Program-made: the position numbers and the translations under genes
The notes under the pieces: generated by a model
Told to the model about the DNA's origin: nothing
Seen by the model: only the letters and a program-made list of their open reading frames with translations
Databases searched by the model: none
Assembly: GCF_000025725.1 (NCBI RefSeq)
Contig: NC_013943.1
Location: forward strand, 2,542,001-2,606,000
Source of the DNA: Denitrovibrio acetiphilus DSM 12809
GTDB taxonomy: Bacteria > Chrysiogenota > Deferribacteres > Deferribacterales > Geovibrionaceae
Direction of reading: 5' to 3'
Length of the DNA: 64,000 nucleotides
Shown here: positions 43,917 to 53,822 of the stretch, piece after piece
How positions within the stretch are numbered: the first letter of the stretch is position 1
How the letters are laid out: each line of letters begins with the position of its first letter

Positions 43917-44942
43917 TTAAAGTTTCGTACTTATAAACATTGCATCACCGTAGCTGAAAAACTTATATCCATTCGCTTTCGCATGTTCATATGCATTAAG
44001 CATATTTCTGCGCCCTGCAAGCTGGCTCACCAGCACAAAAAGAGTCGATTTCGGCAGGTGAAAATTAGTAATAAGCGAGCTTATCACTTTAAAATCATAT
44101 CCGGGCTTGATAAAGAGTTTTGTCTCTCCGTAACCAGCCTGAACCTCACCATTCTCAGCAGCGGACTCCAGAGCACGCACTGCTGTTGTGCCCACTGCCA
44201 CAAGTTTTTTGCCCTCTTTCAGAAGACTGTTGATTCTGTCCGAAGTTTCCTCAGAAATGTAATACTTCTCAGTATGCATGTCATGGTCTTCAAGGTAATC
44301 GGCTTTTACAGGGCGGAATGTCCCTATGCCGATATTCAATGTAACTTCAAGAACCTCAATTCCCTTCGCTTTCAAAGCGTTCATGATCTCGGGTGTAAAG
44401 TGAAGTCCGGCAGTAGGAGCTGCCACTGAGCCTTCATCTTTTGAATATATAGTCTGATATCTGTCAGTATCTTTCTTTGTATCTTCTCTCGTTATATAAG
44501 GGGGGAGAGGCATGTGTCCGCATTTGTCCATGACGTCACTCACATCTGTATCAAACTCTATGACACGTGAGCCGTCATCTAGGATTTCTGTTATTACAGC
44601 TCTGAAGGGCGGAATATTTACAACTGTCCCCTCTTTCACCTTCCCTTTAGTTATGGCTGTGCAAATTCTCTCAGATGTCTTTTCAAGGACAAGGATCTCA
44701 ACCTGACCGCCGGTAGGCTTAGTGCCGTAGAGACGGGCTTTCATAACTTTTGTGGTATTTATCACCAGAAATGAATTTTCATCTATCAGGTCGACGATAT
44801 CGGTAAATATCTTATCATAAAGGGCTTCACCGTTCACCACAAGCAGTTTAGACGTGCCGCGTTTCTCTGCCGGATACTGCGCAATCAGTTCTTCCGGCAG
44901 GTCAAAGTCATAGTCAGATATAGGAGTGCGTTTTTCAGACAT
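43917..44942 (-). CDS. queA: S-adenosylmethionine:tRNA ribosyltransferase-isomerase
   Basis: Adds the epoxycyclopentane ring from S-adenosylmethionine to preQ1 in tRNA, the step after Tgt. The N-terminal DYDFDLPEELIAQYPAEKR is the QueA signature (in two halves), GTVAAPTAGLHF-like SVAAPTAGLHFT and FHLPKSTLFVLVS are also conserved. I chose ATG 44942, giving 341 residues and an eight-base overlap with the thrC stop; the open frame reaches TTG 44951. Confidence 0.97.
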   Translation of the reverse strand: MSEKRTPISDYDFDLPEELIAQYPAEKRGTSKLLVVNGEALYDKIFTDIVDLIDENSFLVINTTKVMKARLYGTKPTGGQVEILVLEKTSERICTAITKGKVKEGTVVNIPPFRAVITEILDDGSRVIEFDTDVSDVMDKCGHMPLPPYITREDTKKDTDRYQTIYSKDEGSVAAPTAGLHFTPEIMNALKAKGIEVLEVTLNIGIGTFRPVKADYLEDHDMHTEKYYISEETSDRINSLLKEGKKLVAVGTTAVRALESAAENGEVQAGYGETKLFIKPGYDFKVISSLITNFHLPKSTLFVLVSQLAGRRNMLNAYEHAKANGYKFFSYGDAMFISTKL

Positions 44943-46308
44943 GTTTTGCAACGAAGTCTTTCACCCTTTCCAGATCATTTTCGATGGTGATACACTTTTT
45001 ATCAAGATTCTCAAGTTTCGCTATCCCCTCTGGTTTCTCCGGTGCCAGCCCTGTGGCTTTTTCAACCACATCAGGAAATTTAGCCGGATGTGCAGTGGAA
45101 AGACAAATATAATCCGCATCAGCCATACTGAGAGCGGCTGAAACACCACAGGCAGTATGAGGATCCAGCACATAGCCTGTTTTATCGTAAAATTCCTTAA
45201 TTGTTTTCTCTGTCAATTCATTTGATGTTGAAAATGTTGCAAATTCTGCGTGAACATTTCTCATCTCATCGGATGAAAAAGATATTCTGCCGCTGGTTTT
45301 GAGCTCCGCCATCTTTTCGCTGAGGGCTTTGCTGTCCCTGTCACAAAGAAAATACAGATACCTTTCAAAGTTCGAAGCAATCTGTATATCCATAGACGGA
45401 CTATAGGTCTGTACAACATCCTTTTTACTGTAGTCGCCGTTATTTATAAATCTGGAAAGTATATTATTTTCGTTTGTGGCGAGTATCATTTTATCAAGGG
45501 GGAGCCCCATCATTTTTGCGAAATATCCGGCAAATATATTGCCGAAGTTTCCTGTGGGCACGACAAAACGTACCTTCTGTGCGCCCTGCTTTTTCGCCTG
45601 AAAATATCCGTAAAAGTAATAGACTATCTGCGCCAGAACCCTTGCCCAGTTGATAGAATTCACAGCACCGAGCTTATATCTCTTCTTATAAGCGATGTCA
45701 CCGAATGCAGCTTTTACGATATCCTGAGCATCATCAAAAGTCCCTTCAATGGCAAGGTTAAAGACGTTATCGTCTGTAACAGATGTCATCTGCATCTCCT
45801 GAACAGCGCTGACACGCCCTTTAGGGTGCAGTATAAATATATTAATATTGTCCTTTCCGCGGACACCGTAAATGGCAGCGGAACCTGTGTCACCGGATGT
45901 TGCGCCGATGATATTAAGTTTTTCGGAACGTTCCTTGAGTATGTACTCAAAAAGATTCCCTAAAAGCTGAAGAGCCACATCCTTAAATGCGAATGTGGGG
46001 CCGTGGAAAAGTTCCTGAATATATATGCCGCCCTTTTTGACAACAGGTGCAACTTCCGGAGTTGTAAATGACGAATAACTCTTTTCTATCAGCGTTCTGA
46101 GGTCAGTTTCAGGGATGTCGGCAGCAAACAGCGATATAATCTCATAAGCCAGCTCATTATAACTGAGCTTCGCCAGTTCATCCAATTTGTCTGCAACAGA
46201 AGGCACGCTTTCAGGGAGGAGTAATCCTCCGTCTTCAGCAAGCCCCATCATGACGGCATCTTTGAAAGAGACCTTTCCTTTTTGTCCTCTTGTGCTGATA
46301 TAGTTCAT
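44935..46308 (-). CDS. thrC: Threonine synthase (long form)
   Basis: Makes threonine from O-phosphohomoserine with PLP. The 457-residue E. coli/yeast type starts MNYISTRGQKGKVSFKDAV; the PLP lysine is in GPTFAFKDVALQ and the phosphate cup is in GATSGDTGSAAI. HPKGRVSAVQEMQM is also family-specific. The start at 46308 has GAGG six bases upstream. A longer frame (46344) would start inside the hairpin upstream. The queA ATG overlaps the stop. Confidence 0.96.
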   Translation of the reverse strand: MNYISTRGQKGKVSFKDAVMMGLAEDGGLLLPESVPSVADKLDELAKLSYNELAYEIISLFAADIPETDLRTLIEKSYSSFTTPEVAPVVKKGGIYIQELFHGPTFAFKDVALQLLGNLFEYILKERSEKLNIIGATSGDTGSAAIYGVRGKDNINIFILHPKGRVSAVQEMQMTSVTDDNVFNLAIEGTFDDAQDIVKAAFGDIAYKKRYKLGAVNSINWARVLAQIVYYFYGYFQAKKQGAQKVRFVVPTGNFGNIFAGYFAKMMGLPLDKMILATNENNILSRFINNGDYSKKDVVQTYSPSMDIQIASNFERYLYFLCDRDSKALSEKMAELKTSGRISFSSDEMRNVHAEFATFSTSNELTEKTIKEFYDKTGYVLDPHTACGVSAALSMADADYICLSTAHPAKFPDVVEKATGLAPEKPEGIAKLENLDKKCITIENDLERVKDFVAKHV

Positions 46309-46332
46309 ATTCATCCTCAACTTAGACACCAA

Positions 46333-46351
46333 AGGGGGCTTCAAGCCCCCT
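46333..46351. terminator. GC-rich hairpin between ndk and thrC
   Basis: Perfect 7 bp stem AGGGGGC/GCCCCCT with a five-base loop. On the minus strand only TTTGGT follows, so the T tract is weak. It may terminate ndk transcripts partly or shape the thrC leader; it lies 25 bases upstream of the thrC ATG. Confidence 0.5.
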
Positions 46352-46427
46352 CTTAAGAATATATTTGACGAGTGCCACCGTAATCCTGTCTAGTGGATAC
46401 GGTAACTCTCTGCTCTATCTGATTTTA

Positions 46428-46841
46428 TTAAACGAGTTCGAGTTCGGAAAAGAAGAAAGCCATTTCGTAAGCGGCTGTTTCAGGAGCATCAGAGCCGTGT
46501 GTGGCATTGTTATCGATGCTTTTACCAAATTCTTTTCTCATTGTGCCTTCTGCTGCATCTGCCGGATTTGTTGCACCCATGAGGTCTCTCCAGTCTTTAA
46601 TTGCGTTCTCTTTTTCAAGAATCATAACAATACATGGAGCAGAACACATGAAGTCTGTAAGGTCGCCAAAAAATGGTCTCTCTTTGTGCACAGCATAAAA
46701 GCCTTCAGCCTGTTTTTTGGAAAGGTGAATTTTTTTAAGACCGATAATTTTGAAGCCTTCTTTTTCGATTCTTGTGATTATTGCGCCTGCATCGCCGGCA
46801 GCAGTTGCGTCTGGTTTAATGATTGCAAAAGTTCTTTCCAT
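46428..46841 (-). CDS. ndk: Nucleoside diphosphate kinase
   Basis: Balances NTP pools by phosphotransfer through a phosphohistidine. The 137 residues start [12 protein letters not shown], and His115 in [12 protein letters not shown] is the phosphorylated residue. [11 protein letters not shown] is also typical. It is upstream of thrC in the same direction, separated by about 120 bases with a hairpin. Confidence 0.97.
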
Positions 46842-47037
46842 TTCTATCCTCTTTAATATTTATTATTTTATTACTAAGCTCAGATTCATTAACATAACAG
46901 GTTGTTATAATCAAGTCTATATATTGTGCAGCTCAGTGCGGGCTCTCTGCATACTGCAAATACCGATGGTTTCTCTCTGCTAACTGCCTTAAATAACAGG
47001 GCACGAGACAAACCAGCCCTCAGCCGACTTCAAAACT

Positions 47038-47385
47038 TTAATGTTTGATGATTACAGCCAGAAATGTAAGCGGTGCAAGAGTATCGTTTTCAAGAGAGTG
47101 GCTCTCTCCGTCTTTAGTAACCAGCATATCACCAGATGAAACCTTCTCTACAGTCCCGTTATCGTTAGCCCTTCCTTCTCCGTCAAGGATAAGATATATC
47201 TCCATATCGCCGGCATGCGGGTGATACCCGATAGAACTGCCCGGCTCCAGCTGCATCATAGCAAAATTCGTAACCTCGCCATTAAATCCTGTTGCCGCGT
47301 CATACGCCAGCCTGAGCGCTTTGCCTTCTCCGCCTCTTGGGTTCTCCATGCTCTGAGCCTGAAGTTCATCGCCTCTTACTATCAC
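47038..47385 (-). CDS. Cupin-domain protein
   Basis: A 115-residue single-domain cupin. Motif 1 is GYHPHAGDMEIYLILDGEG, with His-x-His and Glu as metal ligands, and motif 2 is SGDMLVTKDGESHSLEN with the fourth His. It is probably a metal-binding isomerase, dioxygenase or sensor. I chose GTG 47385 because AAGGAG lies six bases upstream; the open frame runs to 47502 but the extra part is inside the antiporter gene and cysteine-rich. It follows the antiporter stop by 88 bases. Confidence 0.82.
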   Translation of the reverse strand: MIVRGDELQAQSMENPRGGEGKALRLAYDAATGFNGEVTNFAMMQLEPGSSIGYHPHAGDMEIYLILDGEGRANDNGTVEKVSSGDMLVTKDGESHSLENDTLAPLTFLAVIIKH

Positions 47386-47473
47386 ATCATACTCCTTAGT
47401 CTGTAGTTGTTTAATAATATTGATGCAGTCCCGTTTTGTAAAGACCAAACAGTTATGAAGGCTCAAACACCTG

Positions 47474-48733
47474 TCAGAGCGACAATTTCGTTTCTCCGGC
47501 ACGTTTGAGAGCCCATTTGAATCCGATAGGTCCCGCTATCTGATTAATGGCGACAACTGCAAGGACAAGGGTTTGAAGCTGCCCGCCCCAATCACCGAAA
47601 CTAGCTCCGATAATCTTGGCAAAACCGATGCTGACCCCTGCCTGCCCGATAAAACCGAGGAAAGAATAATTTCTGATATATTTATCTTCTCTTATGATAG
47701 TTCCGCCTATCCAGCACCCCGCGAATGTTGCAAAAGCCCTCAGAAAGACAATGCCGAAAGCTGCTATCCACATAACCTTCAGCGCGGGGAGGTCAACAAC
47801 AGTCCCGGCGATAAAAAAGAATACCAGATATATTATACCGGAATTATCCTCAATATTTTTAACCAGCATATGCCCGTAATCAGAAAAATTATTTACTCCT
47901 ATCCCCGCAAAAAGGAATACCAAAAGAGGATTAAGGTGCATATTCTTGGCAATACCTGTCATCACTATAGTAAAAAGGATAATAAATACACCCTGATTCG
48001 CCTTAACATATTTAATATATAAAATTATGATTAGGCTCAGAATAAGCCCGGCAGCCATCGACAAGAACTCTTCAACAATCACTCCGCCAACGGAAACATC
48101 CCCCTCAACACTGTATATGGAAAGCACGAAAGCAAAAATGATAATAATCATAATATCTTTTATGATCGCACTCGTCAGAGTATAGTCCGTAAGCTTCCCT
48201 TTCGCCTCAGTCTCCACAATCACAGCTACTGTGGTTGCAGGGGACTTTGCATTTGCAATTACGCTCATGAATATAATCGCTGTGAGTCCTGAAAAAACTC
48301 CACCAGGGAAAAATCCGCCGAAAAAATAAAGAAACATAAAAACCAGACTGAAAGTGACCACCACCTGGGCAGTGACAAAAACAAATACTTTCCGGAGACA
48401 AATCCTGCTCCCTCTGAAAAGAATCTCCCCACCCGCTGTCATAGCAATGATACTGAGAGCAACGTCATCTATCAGGCGAAGTTCATTTATCATCTCTTTG
48501 GTAAAAACATTCATGGAATAAGGACCAAGAAGGATACCCATAAGCAGGAAACTCGTTATGGCGGGCAATCCGAAAGAGTTCAGCAGTCTGCCGGAAATAA
48601 AGGCAAGCAGAAGAGCAATCCCGAACACCATAAAGAGTGACTCCGGACGCTCTGACAATCCCTTTGTCTGAATGAACAGTAATAATGTAAGTCCTGCTGT
48701 CAGCGACAGTATATCAATAAGTTTTTCTTTCAT
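47474..48733 (-). CDS. CPA2-type cation:proton antiporter (Kef/NapA-like membrane domain)
   Basis: A 419-residue membrane protein of about 12 helices without a C-terminal TrkA domain. The N-terminal LNSFGLPAITSFLLMGILLGPY, the unwound-helix segment MSVIANAKSPATTVAVI and GFIGQAGVSIGFAKIIG are monovalent cation/proton antiporter blocks. Its start overlaps the stop of the gene at 48714-49826 by 20 bases, so the two proteins are made together. The substrate ion is unknown. Confidence 0.88.
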   Translation of the reverse strand: MKEKLIDILSLTAGLTLLLFIQTKGLSERPESLFMVFGIALLLAFISGRLLNSFGLPAITSFLLMGILLGPYSMNVFTKEMINELRLIDDVALSIIAMTAGGEILFRGSRICLRKVFVFVTAQVVVTFSLVFMFLYFFGGFFPGGVFSGLTAIIFMSVIANAKSPATTVAVIVETEAKGKLTDYTLTSAIIKDIMIIIIFAFVLSIYSVEGDVSVGGVIVEEFLSMAAGLILSLIIILYIKYVKANQGVFIILFTIVMTGIAKNMHLNPLLVFLFAGIGVNNFSDYGHMLVKNIEDNSGIIYLVFFFIAGTVVDLPALKVMWIAAFGIVFLRAFATFAGCWIGGTIIREDKYIRNYSFLGFIGQAGVSIGFAKIIGASFGDWGGQLQTLVLAVVAINQIAGPIGFKWALKRAGETKLSL

Positions 48734-49826
48734 TTTTCATCATAAAATATGTTGTTATCTCGGTTGCCAGATGCAGCATAAAAAAAGGTACAAACAAACC
48801 TGCCACAGCTTCATACCCCCGACGGGTTGCAAAGTCCATAAAGAGTACCGCAGGGAGTATCCCCGTGGAAACCAGACAAATAACCTCACCTTTCGTAGGT
48901 ATTAGCCGCCATGCAAGCAGCTTTGCCATATAAAACCTAACGGCAAAAAAGCAAAGATAGAGAACTCCGGCAGTAAGAAATGCTCCCGGGCTAAAGCTGT
49001 ATCCGTAGGCAAGCATCACCCCAAGCGCAACATAAAAGAATATATAGAGTATCCGTTCAAAGCTTATAGACATATTCTGAAAGATATTGCCGTATTTGGT
49101 GTCGGATGTAATTAGTCCTGTCAGAAACCCAACTACAAGAGGGGACATGCTGAAAAACAGTGCAACCCCCGATATCATGACTACATATATAATACTCAGA
49201 TTATGAATATTTTTCTTTGATCGGATTTTGCCATAGTGCAGAAATATAAAAGCAAGCACGAGAGCCGCCATCATTGAAAACAGAAAGTCTGAAGGACGAT
49301 AATCCAGAATCCCCCCCGCAACGCTATATGCAAGAAGAGTATAGAGCGGAAATAGTGAGGCTGTCAGATTAGATGTAAAAACTTTGTCCTTTGGCACACG
49401 AAACAACTTCATAGATAGATTCAGAGAGTAAGGCATCAGAGTGTTCAGAGCGATAGCCGTCATCATAGGACTGCTAAACCCCGAAACCCGCACTACGACA
49501 TAAAGCAGTGGCAGCAGAGACAGATAAACAATTCCTGTAAAAATAAAATATCGCAAAGGTACAGTAAGCAGAAGCTTAACGCTGAAATGTGTACCGAGGG
49601 AGAGCCCCATAAAAGCAAGCAAAAGGTAAAGCATCCCGTTCATAGTCGGAACAGGAACCGGAAGAGACCCCGTCATCGAAAAAATAGCTATACCAACAAA
49701 AATATACTCAAGTTCAAGATTTTCCAGGAAGCTCAGCAGAGACTCATGCTTGCGTTTTGCCCTGTAGAGCAGACTACCTGCAAAAAGAAATGCAAAAAAA
49801 ATGATTACGGTCTCTATTTCATTCAT
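48714..49826 (-). CDS. Divergent CPA2-like membrane protein, partner of the next gene
   Basis: A 370-residue polytopic protein with about 10-12 hydrophobic helices. Segments such as NTLMPYSLNLSMKLF and VVGFLTGLITSDTKYGN and the overall helix spacing resemble half of a CPA2 exchanger, but the usual Asp-rich ion site and gating motifs are not obvious. The 3' end overlaps the canonical antiporter gene by 20 bases in the same direction, so a heteromeric transporter is possible. I could not name a family with certainty. Confidence 0.68.
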   Translation of the reverse strand: MNEIETVIIFFAFLFAGSLLYRAKRKHESLLSFLENLELEYIFVGIAIFSMTGSLPVPVPTMNGMLYLLLAFMGLSLGTHFSVKLLLTVPLRYFIFTGIVYLSLLPLLYVVVRVSGFSSPMMTAIALNTLMPYSLNLSMKLFRVPKDKVFTSNLTASLFPLYTLLAYSVAGGILDYRPSDFLFSMMAALVLAFIFLHYGKIRSKKNIHNLSIIYVVMISGVALFFSMSPLVVGFLTGLITSDTKYGNIFQNMSISFERILYIFFYVALGVMLAYGYSFSPGAFLTAGVLYLCFFAVRFYMAKLLAWRLIPTKGEVICLVSTGILPAVLFMDFATRRGYEAVAGLFVPFFMLHLATEITTYFMMKNERKTY

Positions 49827-49872
49827 AAAGACATTTTACTTGAACTTTCAAACCATTGCTAGAAATAAACAA

Positions 49873-50481
49873 CTATCCCAGTGCTAAAACAAGCCCCAAG
49901 GTTATGATAACAGCTCCGGAAAACTGTTCAATGCGGTGTGCATAATTGTTCAGAAGCTTTCTGATCCGGCTGTTCCCTACGGAAAAAGCGATAAATACAT
50001 CCCACAAAAGTACGGCAGAAAACATCCATAGCCCATAGAGAGCCTGAATATGAAGTCCGGTGGTTCTGCTGATAAAAAGGCTGTACAAACTGATATAAAA
50101 TATAGGATTTTTAGGGTTCAGTATCGCCGACACAAACCCCGTCATAAAAAGCATTCTTACTGATTCATGCCTGTGCACCACCCGTTCGGAAGAATAAAGA
50201 TCACGCTTACCGGACCGCAGCAGCATAAACCCGAGATAACAGAGAAAGCCAGCCCCGGCTACTTTCATAACTGACAGCACCCAAACATGCTCGCGCACAG
50301 CAGAAAAACCTATCAGCGCAAGTATAATATATACGCCGTTTGCCGAAGCTATACCAAAACATGTGTAAAATGCTCTGCCGGAACCATTACGAAGTGCTTT
50401 TGTTATGATAATAAAAAAGTCAGGACCGGGGCTTATCAACGCCAGAAAATGAGCGACTGCCACTGTCAGAAATTCTGTCAT
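49873..50481 (-). CDS. LysE/RhtB-family amino acid exporter
   Basis: A 202-residue inner-membrane exporter with five to six helices. The N-terminal FLALISPGPDFFIIITKAL contains the SPGPD family motif, and GFVSAILNPKNPIFY is the second signature. GGAGGGG precedes the ATG. Substrates in the family are homoserine, threonine, lysine or arginine. The upstream AraC gene, 58 bases away in the same direction, is a possible local regulator. Confidence 0.92.
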   Translation of the reverse strand: MTEFLTVAVAHFLALISPGPDFFIIITKALRNGSGRAFYTCFGIASANGVYIILALIGFSAVREHVWVLSVMKVAGAGFLCYLGFMLLRSGKRDLYSSERVVHRHESVRMLFMTGFVSAILNPKNPIFYISLYSLFISRTTGLHIQALYGLWMFSAVLLWDVFIAFSVGNSRIRKLLNNYAHRIEQFSGAVIITLGLVLALG

Positions 50482-50539
50482 ACACCCCTCCGAAACTTTC
50501 TTATTTAAATACAGAAAATTTCGGCAGCAGTATTGTACA

Positions 50540-51346
50540 TTATTGACCTTTTAGATATTCCCCCGGGGTTGCGGCTGTAAGCTTGCGAAACATCCGGTGA
50601 AAATGACTCTGATCTGTAAACCCCACAGCAAGGGCTGTCTCAGAAATAGAACTGCCCAGCCGAAGCATCTCTTTTGCCCTCTGTATACGTAGATTCATCT
50701 GATAGGCATGTGGCGGAAGCCCGTAAGCATTCCGGAATGAACGTAAGAGATGAAACCTGTTCTGACGAAATCTCTCCGCCAGAGCATCTAATGAAATATT
50801 GATAAAGAAATTCTCTGCAAGATAACTCTCGATTTCTCCGAGAACATTTGAATGGATATCTGCTTCCCGTCTGGCAGAGCAGAACTTTTCAAAGATATAA
50901 GAACAAAAACGGGTTAGTTCATATTCTGCGTCAAACAAATCATCGTTGTTTATAATACTTTTGCATATAAATAAGAAATCATCGAAAAGTTCCTGGTCAA
51001 GAGCGTAGCAGATATTGACAGGCATATAATCGTCACAGCCAAACATCTCTTTTTGAATGTTTCTGCACCAGTCTTTTTCAAGGTACATCATCCAATAGGA
51101 ACGCATATGCCCATCTGCCGGATTGCAGCTATGGATTTCATCCGGATTAAAAAACACAAGAGTACCAGCACTGACAAGCCTCTCTGTATCACCACATGAC
51201 ATGACAGTCTCTCCGGCATCCACAGCCCCTACTGAAAAATATTCTTCGTGGGAGTGCCGCTTATATTCAGCCGTGCTAGCTTCGGTCTGCCGGATTTCAA
51301 GAAACGGAAGTTTCTTATCCCGCCAGAATATATTTTTTGCGCTCAT
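50540..51346 (-). CDS. AraC-family regulator with cupin-like sensor domain
   Basis: A 268-residue regulator. The N-terminal half (about 15-110) resembles an AraC effector-binding cupin (SHEEYFSVGAVDAG, PDEIHSCNP). The C-terminal double helix-turn-helix has ISLDALAERFRQNRFHLLRSFR and IQRAKEMLRLGSSISETALAVGFTDQSHFHRMFRK (in parts), ending TAATPGEYLKGQ. The ATG lies one base after the KefB stop, so it is cotranscribed with the antiporter, while the lysE-type exporter follows. Confidence 0.92.
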   Translation of the reverse strand: MSAKNIFWRDKKLPFLEIRQTEASTAEYKRHSHEEYFSVGAVDAGETVMSCGDTERLVSAGTLVFFNPDEIHSCNPADGHMRSYWMMYLEKDWCRNIQKEMFGCDDYMPVNICYALDQELFDDFLFICKSIINNDDLFDAEYELTRFCSYIFEKFCSARREADIHSNVLGEIESYLAENFFINISLDALAERFRQNRFHLLRSFRNAYGLPPHAYQMNLRIQRAKEMLRLGSSISETALAVGFTDQSHFHRMFRKLTAATPGEYLKGQ

Positions 51347-51347
51347 C

Positions 51348-53255
51348 TCACCCCTGTGCCTTCAGCAGACCGCCAAATTTATTAATTTCTTTGGTTCCTC
51401 CCATCACAAGCAATTCGTCACGCTCGATAATTGTAAAATCGCAGGAAGGGTTTGACATAATTCTTCCACCCCTTGTTACCGACAGAACAGTAACGCCGTA
51501 CTTATACCGCAGGTCAAGTGTGCGAAGGTTTTTACCAGAGCATTTTGACGCTACCGGTACAGTTATTTTACGCACGTCAACACCGGCAATGCTATCCGCA
51601 GCGACCTGCTTACCCTCTGTATCAAACCTGCCCATGACCTCGCTCACCAGCTTATTGGCAGACTCTATCTCTTCTGAAATCACTGCATTAGCGCCAAGCT
51701 TTTTAAGGGGTGAAAGCTCCAGAGCGTATCTCGTCCGCGCTACAATGTGTATATACGGATGCTCTGCACGGGCGGTTTCAACTATCTTTCTAACTGCAAC
51801 GGGATCTGGCACTGTGATGGCAATGGCTCTGGCTGTATTAAGCTGTGCATGCTCCAGCACTTCGATAGATGAAGCGTCGCCATACATTATATTTGTGCCT
51901 TTACCATGTTCCTTCTTAACTGTCTCTGGATTCATCTCTATCGCAATGAAGCGCACGCCTTCCCTACGGCAGGATGCAGCAAGCTGTCGCCCGGCAAGTC
52001 CGTAACCGACTATTACGATATGATCCTCAAAAGTTTCCGAAGGTCGGGTAAATATGCTCTGCGCACCCTCCCGCAATCTCTCAGACATAGGCAGTTTGAC
52101 AATAAGCTGTGCTATCATATCGCCATACTTAATGGCAAAAGGAGCGGCTGCCATAGTCAGCACAATCACCGCCACAGCAAACTTATAATGCTGACTGTCG
52201 AGGACACCGGCGGAAACACCTGTTTTCGCCATTATGAAAGAAAATTCCCCCACCTGTCCGAGAGCCAGCCCCGTGACCACAGCGGTTTTAAGCGGATATT
52301 TCAAAATTAATATGGATAACGCAGAGATAACAGACTTACCAAAAAGTATCAGCACCGCTGTTGAAAGTATGAGTACAGGATGATCCGCATATATCTGAAA
52401 ATCAATCAGCATGCCTATAGAAACAAAAAAGAATCCTGTAAAAATATCTTTGAAAGGAATAACACTGCTGAGAGCCTGCTGACCATATCCGGACTCACTG
52501 ACCATAATCCCAGCCAGAAAAGCACCAAGGGCAAGCGAAAGACCAGCCTTATAAGTTAAAGATGCCGTCCCAAGACCTATAAGAACCACCACCAGCAAAA
52601 AAAGCTCTCTGTTTTTAGAAGCGGCTACATAATATAAAACTTTCGGTACAAGTGTCCGTGCACCGATAAAGATTGCTGCGACTATAAATACCGCCTTCGC
52701 TCCTGTAACACCGAGATCTATATAAACATTGTCCCCTGTGCCAGCCATGACAGGTATCAGGAGCATCATGGGGATAACAGCGATATCCTGAAATATCAGC
52801 ACGGCTGTTGACAGCCTTCCGTGAGGCGAATCCATCTCGCCCCGTCCGGCAAGAACCTTAAGCACTATTGCAGTGGAGGATAGCGAAACTATCATACCCG
52901 TTATTATTGCCAGTGAAAGATTGCCGTGAGACATAATATATACTACTCCGCCTGTGACAAGTGCTGTGACAGTCACCTGAAAACCACCGCCAAGAAGTGC
53001 GGGTTTTTTCAGTGCCAGCAGATGAGAAAGTGAAAATTCCAGCCCCACAGCGAAAAGCAGAAGTACGACACCAATTTCCGCCATCATTTCTACTTCGTGC
53101 AGGGCATGTATTACAGAAAATCCGTTAGGCCCCAGCAAAACTCCGGTTATCAGATACCCGAGAATCTCCGGCACTTTCAACTTTGAACATATCGCAAGAG
53201 AAACGGCGGCTGTTGCGAATATATATGTGATATCAGCTAAAATAGGTATTTCCAT
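51348..53255 (-). CDS. KefB-like cation:proton antiporter with TrkA-N and TrkA-C domains
   Basis: A 635-residue CPA2 antiporter. The N-terminal 385 residues form about 12 helices with VPEILGYLITGVLLGPNGF and GQVGEFSFIMAKTG. The cytoplasmic RCK part starts DHIVIVGYGLAGRQLAASC with its nucleotide-binding Gly motif, and a TrkA-C domain (residues about 540-635) is last. It probably exports potassium or sodium in exchange for protons under control of NAD(H) or another nucleotide. ATG 53255 has GGAAGGA before it; the TTG reading to 53273 adds six residues. Confidence 0.93.
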   Translation of the reverse strand: MEIPILADITYIFATAAVSLAICSKLKVPEILGYLITGVLLGPNGFSVIHALHEVEMMAEIGVVLLLFAVGLEFSLSHLLALKKPALLGGGFQVTVTALVTGGVVYIMSHGNLSLAIITGMIVSLSSTAIVLKVLAGRGEMDSPHGRLSTAVLIFQDIAVIPMMLLIPVMAGTGDNVYIDLGVTGAKAVFIVAAIFIGARTLVPKVLYYVAASKNRELFLLVVVLIGLGTASLTYKAGLSLALGAFLAGIMVSESGYGQQALSSVIPFKDIFTGFFFVSIGMLIDFQIYADHPVLILSTAVLILFGKSVISALSILILKYPLKTAVVTGLALGQVGEFSFIMAKTGVSAGVLDSQHYKFAVAVIVLTMAAAPFAIKYGDMIAQLIVKLPMSERLREGAQSIFTRPSETFEDHIVIVGYGLAGRQLAASCRREGVRFIAIEMNPETVKKEHGKGTNIMYGDASSIEVLEHAQLNTARAIAITVPDPVAVRKIVETARAEHPYIHIVARTRYALELSPLKKLGANAVISEEIESANKLVSEVMGRFDTEGKQVAADSIAGVDVRKITVPVASKCSGKNLRTLDLRYKYGVTVLSVTRGGRIMSNPSCDFTIIERDELLVMGGTKEINKFGGLLKAQG

Positions 53256-53345
53256 CTGTCCTTCCAGATTCAAGAATTTTTATTACAATATCAGGCTTTT
53301 GATATTATGTAAAATATTGTATACCTTTCTAAGAGAGGTTTTTAG

Positions 53346-53822
53346 ATGAAAATTAAAACAGGAATCGGATTCGACGCCCATAGGTTTGCAGCGGGTCGGG
53401 AGTTGTATGTCGGCGGCATAAAGATTGACTCCCCATACGGTCTGGACGGACACAGCGACGCTGATGTTCTCATTCATGCGATTATTGATGCCCTTGCAGG
53501 TCCTGCACTCGGACGTGACATAGGAAATCTCTTTCCCGACAATGACATTAAATACAAAAACATAGATTCAAAAGTCCTCCTTGCTGACGCAGTCAAACTC
53601 ATAAAAGATGCCGGCTGGACGATATCAAACGTTGATGCACAGATAATAGCCCAGAAGCCCAAGATGGCTCCTCACATACCTGCAATGAGAAAAGTTCTGG
53701 CAGAAATCATAGAAATCCCCGAAGAGGACATGACTATCAAAGCAACGACAACAGAAAAGATGGGGTTTACCGGCAGGGGTGAAGGGGTGGCATCAATCGC
53801 TGTAGCGACACTTATCAAATAA
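53346..53822 (+). CDS. ispF: 2-C-methyl-D-erythritol 2,4-cyclodiphosphate synthase
   Basis: Forms the cyclic diphosphate in the MEP isoprenoid pathway. The zinc ligands are Asp10, His12 (GFDAHRF) and His44 (DADVLIHAI). Conserved GRDIGNLFPD and TTTEKMGFTGRGEG blocks are present. 158 residues, normal. AGAGAGG lies upstream. It stands alone on the plus strand; ispD is not adjacent. A repeat-rich gap follows. Confidence 0.97.
   Translation: MKIKTGIGFDAHRFAAGRELYVGGIKIDSPYGLDGHSDADVLIHAIIDALAGPALGRDIGNLFPDNDIKYKNIDSKVLLADAVKLIKDAGWTISNVDAQIIAQKPKMAPHIPAMRKVLAEIIEIPEEDMTIKATTTEKMGFTGRGEGVASIAVATLIK

Follow-up and report, generated by a model that had tools for sequence, protein, structure and literature searches.

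A CPA2-type antiporter and a homologue without the ion-binding acid are paired across bacterial phyla and may form a heteromeric exchanger

Introduction

In a stretch of 64,000 nucleotides (hereafter the window) that is part of the 3.22 Mb genome of Denitrovibrio acetiphilus DSM 12809, two overlapping genes, here called A and B, raise the question of whether a CPA2-type antiporter and a divergent relative could work together as one exchanger. Such an arrangement would be out of the ordinary: in the available text of two sources, CPA antiporters are presented as homodimers (PMC13408996, PMC9408914), NhaA as a dimer with the monomer as its functional unit (PMC13408996), and antiporters outside Mrp as typically built from one kind of subunit (PMC9408914). 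A naturally heteromeric antiporter in which one half is blind would thus be unusual. Our literature search, with most subscription journals and preprints lying outside its coverage, did not find a heteromeric CPA antiporter. If A and B do form a pair with one blind protomer, this pair would allow one to test directly if CPA protomers cooperate, and in what way. Through the conserved pairing of the two genes, proteins without family assignment also acquire a role that can be tested and, in Myxococcota and Acidobacteriota, a link to potassium homeostasis. Here, we present the evidence on which we lean, by a modest margin of confidence, towards a heteromeric CPA2-type exchanger made up of A and B, with B as the transporting subunit and A as its homologous partner.

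Gene organisation of the locus

Both open reading frames lie on the minus strand, at the positions that the initial annotation had given for them. Gene A (48714-49826), transcribed first, codes for the putative CPA-fold partner protein of 370 aa, and gene B (47474-48733), transcribed second, for a CPA2-type antiporter of 419 aa with a PF00999 domain. The end of A lies on the start of B, and the overlap of 20 bases that had been claimed was found at 48714-48733 of the minus strand. The overlap measures 20 nt in the window and in six relatives, which makes seven of the nine Deferribacterota genomes that have the pair, and 17 and 14 nt in the remaining, most distant two; translation of A and B is probably coupled via this overlap. 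The cupin gene said to follow B is also there, as an ORF on the minus strand (47038-47502) that matches Cupin_2 (PF07883, 2.5e-13) and overlaps the end of B from its GTG start, the real start possibly lying further in. A cupin homologue stands behind B in five of the nine Deferribacterota genomes with the pair, a count in which the contig of genome G019 stops before the cupin position. In some of the Deferribacterota, the unit has the cupin as its third gene.

Upstream of the pair, the window carries genes for a LysE-type exporter, an AraC-type regulator and a KefC-like antiporter with an RCK domain (51348-53273). Separate TrkA, TrkH and EIIA genes are absent from the surroundings of the pair (44000-53500), where only this KefC-like antiporter is present; a close copy of it near the pair was seen only in two loci of the same genus. 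Scans of 46800-51400 for promoters and terminators gave no more sites than were obtained in shuffled sequences.

B is a CPA2-type antiporter

The B protein matches PF00999 with 66.5 bits (Pfam cut-off 26.2), as expected of a member of the CPA superfamily, and this is its sole family domain. The AlphaFold2 model of B (pLDDT 85.9, pTM 0.81) gave structural matches to NapA (Z 34.5), NHA2 (33.0) and KefC (27.5). In the CPA motif scheme of Masrati et al., as given in the available text, position 7 is Asp and position 8 is Arg or Lys, and Glu at position 5 denotes CPA1 (PMC6181914). B has Lys192-Asp193 at positions 6-7, Arg332 at position 8 in TM10, and Ser164-Pro165 in TM4. Asp193, Arg332 and the Ser-Pro of TM4 are invariant in 49/49 aligned B rows, 45 of which have Lys at position 6. 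Residue 188, which represents position 5 and lies four before position 6, is Ser and not the Glu of CPA1, so B is CPA2-like. The features of Kef proteins are missing as well, namely the C-terminal RCK/TrkA_N domain and the QD motif, in place of which B has KD at 192-193.

For position 6, the same scheme gives Asp, Asn or Gln, and Lys goes unmentioned in the available text (PMC6181914). In a wider set of sequences, position 6 of B is often Ala, Ser or Gly, and KD occurs in 9/41 paired rows; hence, the KD motif marks part of the B family and not all of it. The term canonical antiporter, which the initial annotation had used for B, is backed by PF00999, Asp193 and Arg332, but is slightly too strong with regard to the Lys at position 6. 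A scan of viral contigs with the B protein as query did not find relatives.

A is a predicted homologue of B without the ion-binding acid

Searches of Pfam and NCBIfam with A gave no significant match, PF00999 included. BLASTP of A against B reached an E value of only 0.04, and the probability in a first profile comparison of the two, with nine rows each, was just 25%. A profile-profile comparison with 44 A and 49 B rows gave a probability of 99.86 (E 5e-31, 364 columns), and the A protein from the relative locus L031 does reach PF00999 (40.9 bits). The AlphaFold2 model of A (pLDDT 86.2, pTM 0.87) was used for structure searches with Foldseek and VIA-align, in which the best PDB matches were all CPA proteins: SOS1 (Z 29.1, rmsd 4.2, 361 aligned), NapA (27.3) and KefC (23.8). 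As judged from profiles and model, A is a homologue of B with a predicted NhaA fold.

In the profile alignment, Phe159-Pro160 of A fall on Lys192-Asp193 of B, and the ion-binding acid is thus missing in A, whereas Arg297 of A falls on Arg332 of B. All nine Deferribacterota rows of A have F/Y-P at positions 6-7, with Pro at position 7 in each, and the basic residue at position 8 in TM10 is kept as an Arg that is invariant in these rows (Arg297). At the broken TM4, A has Asn128..Pro132.

The loss of the catalytic acid, together with a divergence as strong as 28-32% identity between A and the A proteins of other families in the phylum, would be expected if A were a functionless, decaying duplicate of an antiporter. 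Such decay is at odds with a reading frame that is intact in 9/9 genomes, with 40 invariant columns among the nine rows, and with codon changes relative to locus L002 that are dominated by the third position (107/55/214 by position); within the genus, dN is 0.20-0.27 and dS is saturated. We therefore regard a decaying A as very improbable.

A and B co-occur in a conserved order

Among 50 Deferribacterota genomes, A was found in nine and B in the same nine, never apart and always in the order A then B on one strand. A scan of a genome collection with the B alignment yielded 48 loci from Myxococcota, 'Deltaproteobacteria', Acidobacteria, Aminicenantes, Delongbacteria and other taxa. A lies upstream of B in 39 of these loci and elsewhere in the genome in three, and six are on contigs cut near B.

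For Myxococcota, a set of 235 genomes from the phylum of the L035 genome was searched, the label being taken from the Myxococcales neighbours of L035 in the tree. In 75 of these genomes, there were 85 B matches that scored 225 bits or more; for 72 of the matches, an A gene lies upstream, on the same strand and no more than 8 kb away, at a distance of at most 200 nt in 42 pairs and of 2.5-5.5 kb in 28. Counted by genome, with the reservation that these genomes are related, both genes are present in 71, B only in four, A only in one and neither in 159. In one of the four genomes with B only, A adjoins B below the search threshold (L134), and in the one with A only, B is there, split across two frames. 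In three genomes, no A was found for a strong B; in two of these, B sits on a contig of 3.4-3.6 kb.

The Acidobacteriota set comprised 247 genomes from the phylum of the L031 genome, in 38 of which 39 B matches were obtained (E 1e-60), 30 of the 39 with A. For ten B genes, A was detected in the genome at E 1e-36, once on another contig; on inspection, 20 of the other 29 have A immediately upstream, and for nine there was no A in the neighbourhood inspected. As the genome search scores 6-7 candidates per genome for the A and B profiles, misses are possible. Given the nine of 39 Acidobacteriota B genes and the three Myxococcota genomes for which A was not found, B may occasionally work without A; among the B proteins that lack A, a number are low-scoring or Kef-like. 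No fusion of A and B was seen in the loci read. In trees, from which the placements of outgroup rows L019-L021, L071 and L082 were left out because these rows are wrong reading frames, a branch (SH-aLRT 99) has all of B to one side; A is not gathered in this way, and long branches meet.

The acid at position 7 is lost asymmetrically

Position 7 was compared in 81 pairs. It is acidic in both subunits in 46 pairs; in 33, only B has the acid, and in two, only A, which amounts to an acid in B in 79/81 and in A in 48/81. The count for A becomes 52/81 if the acid is allowed one place earlier; the A proteins of L025 and L031, which have it one place before the column, were scored as having lost it at position 7, and in the most diverged A rows an alignment error of one residue is possible. 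There was no pair without acid in both subunits, vs 0.8 expected under independence, and with so few expected their absence alone proves nothing. On the B tree, position 7 changed at least seven times in A and at least once in B.

Two Acidobacteriota pairs have Gln at the site of the Asp in B, and Asp-Asp in A. The B genes lie at L109:1575-2873 and L122:1495-2793, and the A genes at L109:2867-3943 and L122:2784-3869. The two loci are sisters in the tree and represent one event, in which, to judge from the aligned residues, the ion site apparently changed subunit, from B to A. Such an exchange is consistent with a unit for which a single working site is required.

At position 6, 45 of the 81 pairs combine Lys in B with a non-acidic residue in A, and 24 combine another residue in B with an acid in A, with nine and three exceptions. 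This correlation between Lys in B and a non-acidic residue in A was discarded as evidence, since it was non-significant in tree-aware tests of independent pairs, of which there were too few.

It is conceivable that A and B are separate homodimeric transporters encoded in one operon, A being a divergent exchanger with another site or ion. The acid retained in 48 A proteins would suit such a transporter, as would the basic residue of TM10, which is kept in nearly all A, and the three genomes in which A lies apart from B. The near-perfect co-occurrence of A and B, however, fits a dependent partner better, and so does an acid that was lost repeatedly in A and hardly in B; moreover, the Deferribacterota A proteins are acid-free at positions 6 and 7. 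Two independent transporters are thus, in our view, unlikely.

Taken across phyla, the conserved pairing, the gene order, the co-occurrence and the asymmetric loss of the acid give good comparative support to A and B being one functional unit with a degenerate half. The initial annotation had described the divergent protein as devoid of ion-binding motifs and had proposed a unit with one inactive or regulatory half. The former holds for A of the window, with its Pro160, and for 9/9 Deferribacterota, but not for the A family as a whole, and the latter is upheld as far as a degenerate half is concerned, but goes too far for the pairs in which A is acidic.

Proposed two-subunit exchanger

In the two-subunit exchanger that we favour, B would be the transporting protomer, whose core domain would carry cation and proton on Asp193, with Arg332 on TM10, by the elevator mechanism known for the NhaA fold. 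A would take the place of the second protomer of the usual homodimer, most likely pairing with B through the dimerisation domain and serving as scaffold or regulator. The A proteins of Deferribacterota, having lost the ion-binding acid, would bind no ion, and those of other lineages, which keep acidic residues, may share in transport. The unit would most likely export K+ (or Na+) against H+ and contribute to potassium and pH homeostasis. We infer physical contact between A and B, as well as the role of A, the ion (K+ most likely, Na+ possible) and the direction of transport. With the comparison of many genomes, the heteromer has grown from a conjecture on a single locus into a good hypothesis.

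The NapA/NHA2-type CPA2 antiporters resemble the pair in the fold of both proteins, the broken TM4, the basic residue of TM10 and the Asp at position 7 of B. Unlike the pair, the known ones are encoded by single genes and built from one type of subunit (PMC9408914), whereas here there are two homologous genes, A without the Asp and B with Lys at position 6. The KefC/KefB K+/H+ exchangers share the CPA2 core, and a potassium context is suggested by the Trk and EIIA neighbours of relatives of the pair, but B has KD rather than QD and is devoid of an RCK/TrkA domain. KefF and KefG are soluble proteins and are not known to be CPA homologues. Mrp (CPA3) is not known to have the NhaA fold. In the available text of the respective sources, KefC is given as a homodimer (PMC11150392) and KefF and KefG as helpers of Kef exchangers (PMC11808508), and Mrp is an antiporter of several different membrane subunits (PMC9408914), although of six to seven different ones, unlike A-B. 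Heterodimeric ABC exporters of the TM287/288 type are, as far as described in the available text, similar in having two homologous subunits and one non-canonical site (PMC5216877), but their fold and energy source are unrelated to those of A-B and there is no common descent.

Neighbouring genes and potassium

By gene order, the 48 scanned loci comprise 25 with A-TrkA-TrkH-B, one with A-TrkA-B and 13 with A-B, and MscS often comes after B; TrkA was called by PF02254, TrkH by PF02386 and MscS by PF00924. An EIIA gene, identified by PF00359 in L025 and L026 and by similarity to these two in the others, immediately precedes A in 12 loci (L025, L026, L051, L090, L108, L115, L118, L120 and L124-L127); the label PtsN-like is ours. 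In E. coli, the K+/H+ antiporter YcgO is described, in the available text, as inhibited by unphosphorylated PtsN (PMC11808508). The TrkA, TrkH, MscS and PtsN-like EIIA neighbours found in other phyla point to potassium homeostasis.

These neighbours also bear on whether A might be a CPA-like protein with a regulatory or sensory role, one that controls the gating of B (in Myxococcota also of TrkH/TrkA) but is no fixed subunit. A is the first gene in the A-TrkA-TrkH-B units, which make up 25/48 loci, and the PtsN-like EIIA alongside it in 12 loci recalls the inhibition of YcgO, both of which would suit a gating protein. On the other hand, A of the window is a full-length NhaA fold in the model, with no added sensory domain, and the nine Deferribacterota pairs overlap and have no third component except the cupin in five. 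We consider a purely regulatory A rather unlikely, and a little more so than two separate transporters.

Extended beyond the window, the heteromeric A-B exchanger becomes a more tentative proposal, to which we would give slightly less than even chances: A-B pairs could be a widespread class of CPA2 exchangers that are obligate heteromers, with transport by one protomer and repeated loss of the ion site in its homologue. The working site could be switched between the subunits, as in the two sister Acidobacteriota pairs, and the exchangers would belong to potassium modules with TrkA/TrkH, MscS or PtsN-like EIIA.

Several further features were observed in individual loci. The A-TrkA-TrkH-B arrangement (25 among loci L028-L069), in many cases with MscS next in line, has the look of a single module for potassium and turgor, and several A proteins of these loci start with an apparent signal peptide. 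At L100:2896-5553, two divergently oriented A-like genes stand beside one B, and one of them adjoins TrkA. The B proteins of Myxococcota and some Acidobacteriota carry a fused extension of about 1,050-1,100 residues (L035:5863-10377, L031:5962-10482, L061:1583-5977 and others), which has a weak AAA_16/P-loop region near its end. Among 29 fused B proteins, GxxxxGK[ST] is intact in six; most of the others keep GK but continue with Ala or another residue, and GxxxxGK is absent there in two.
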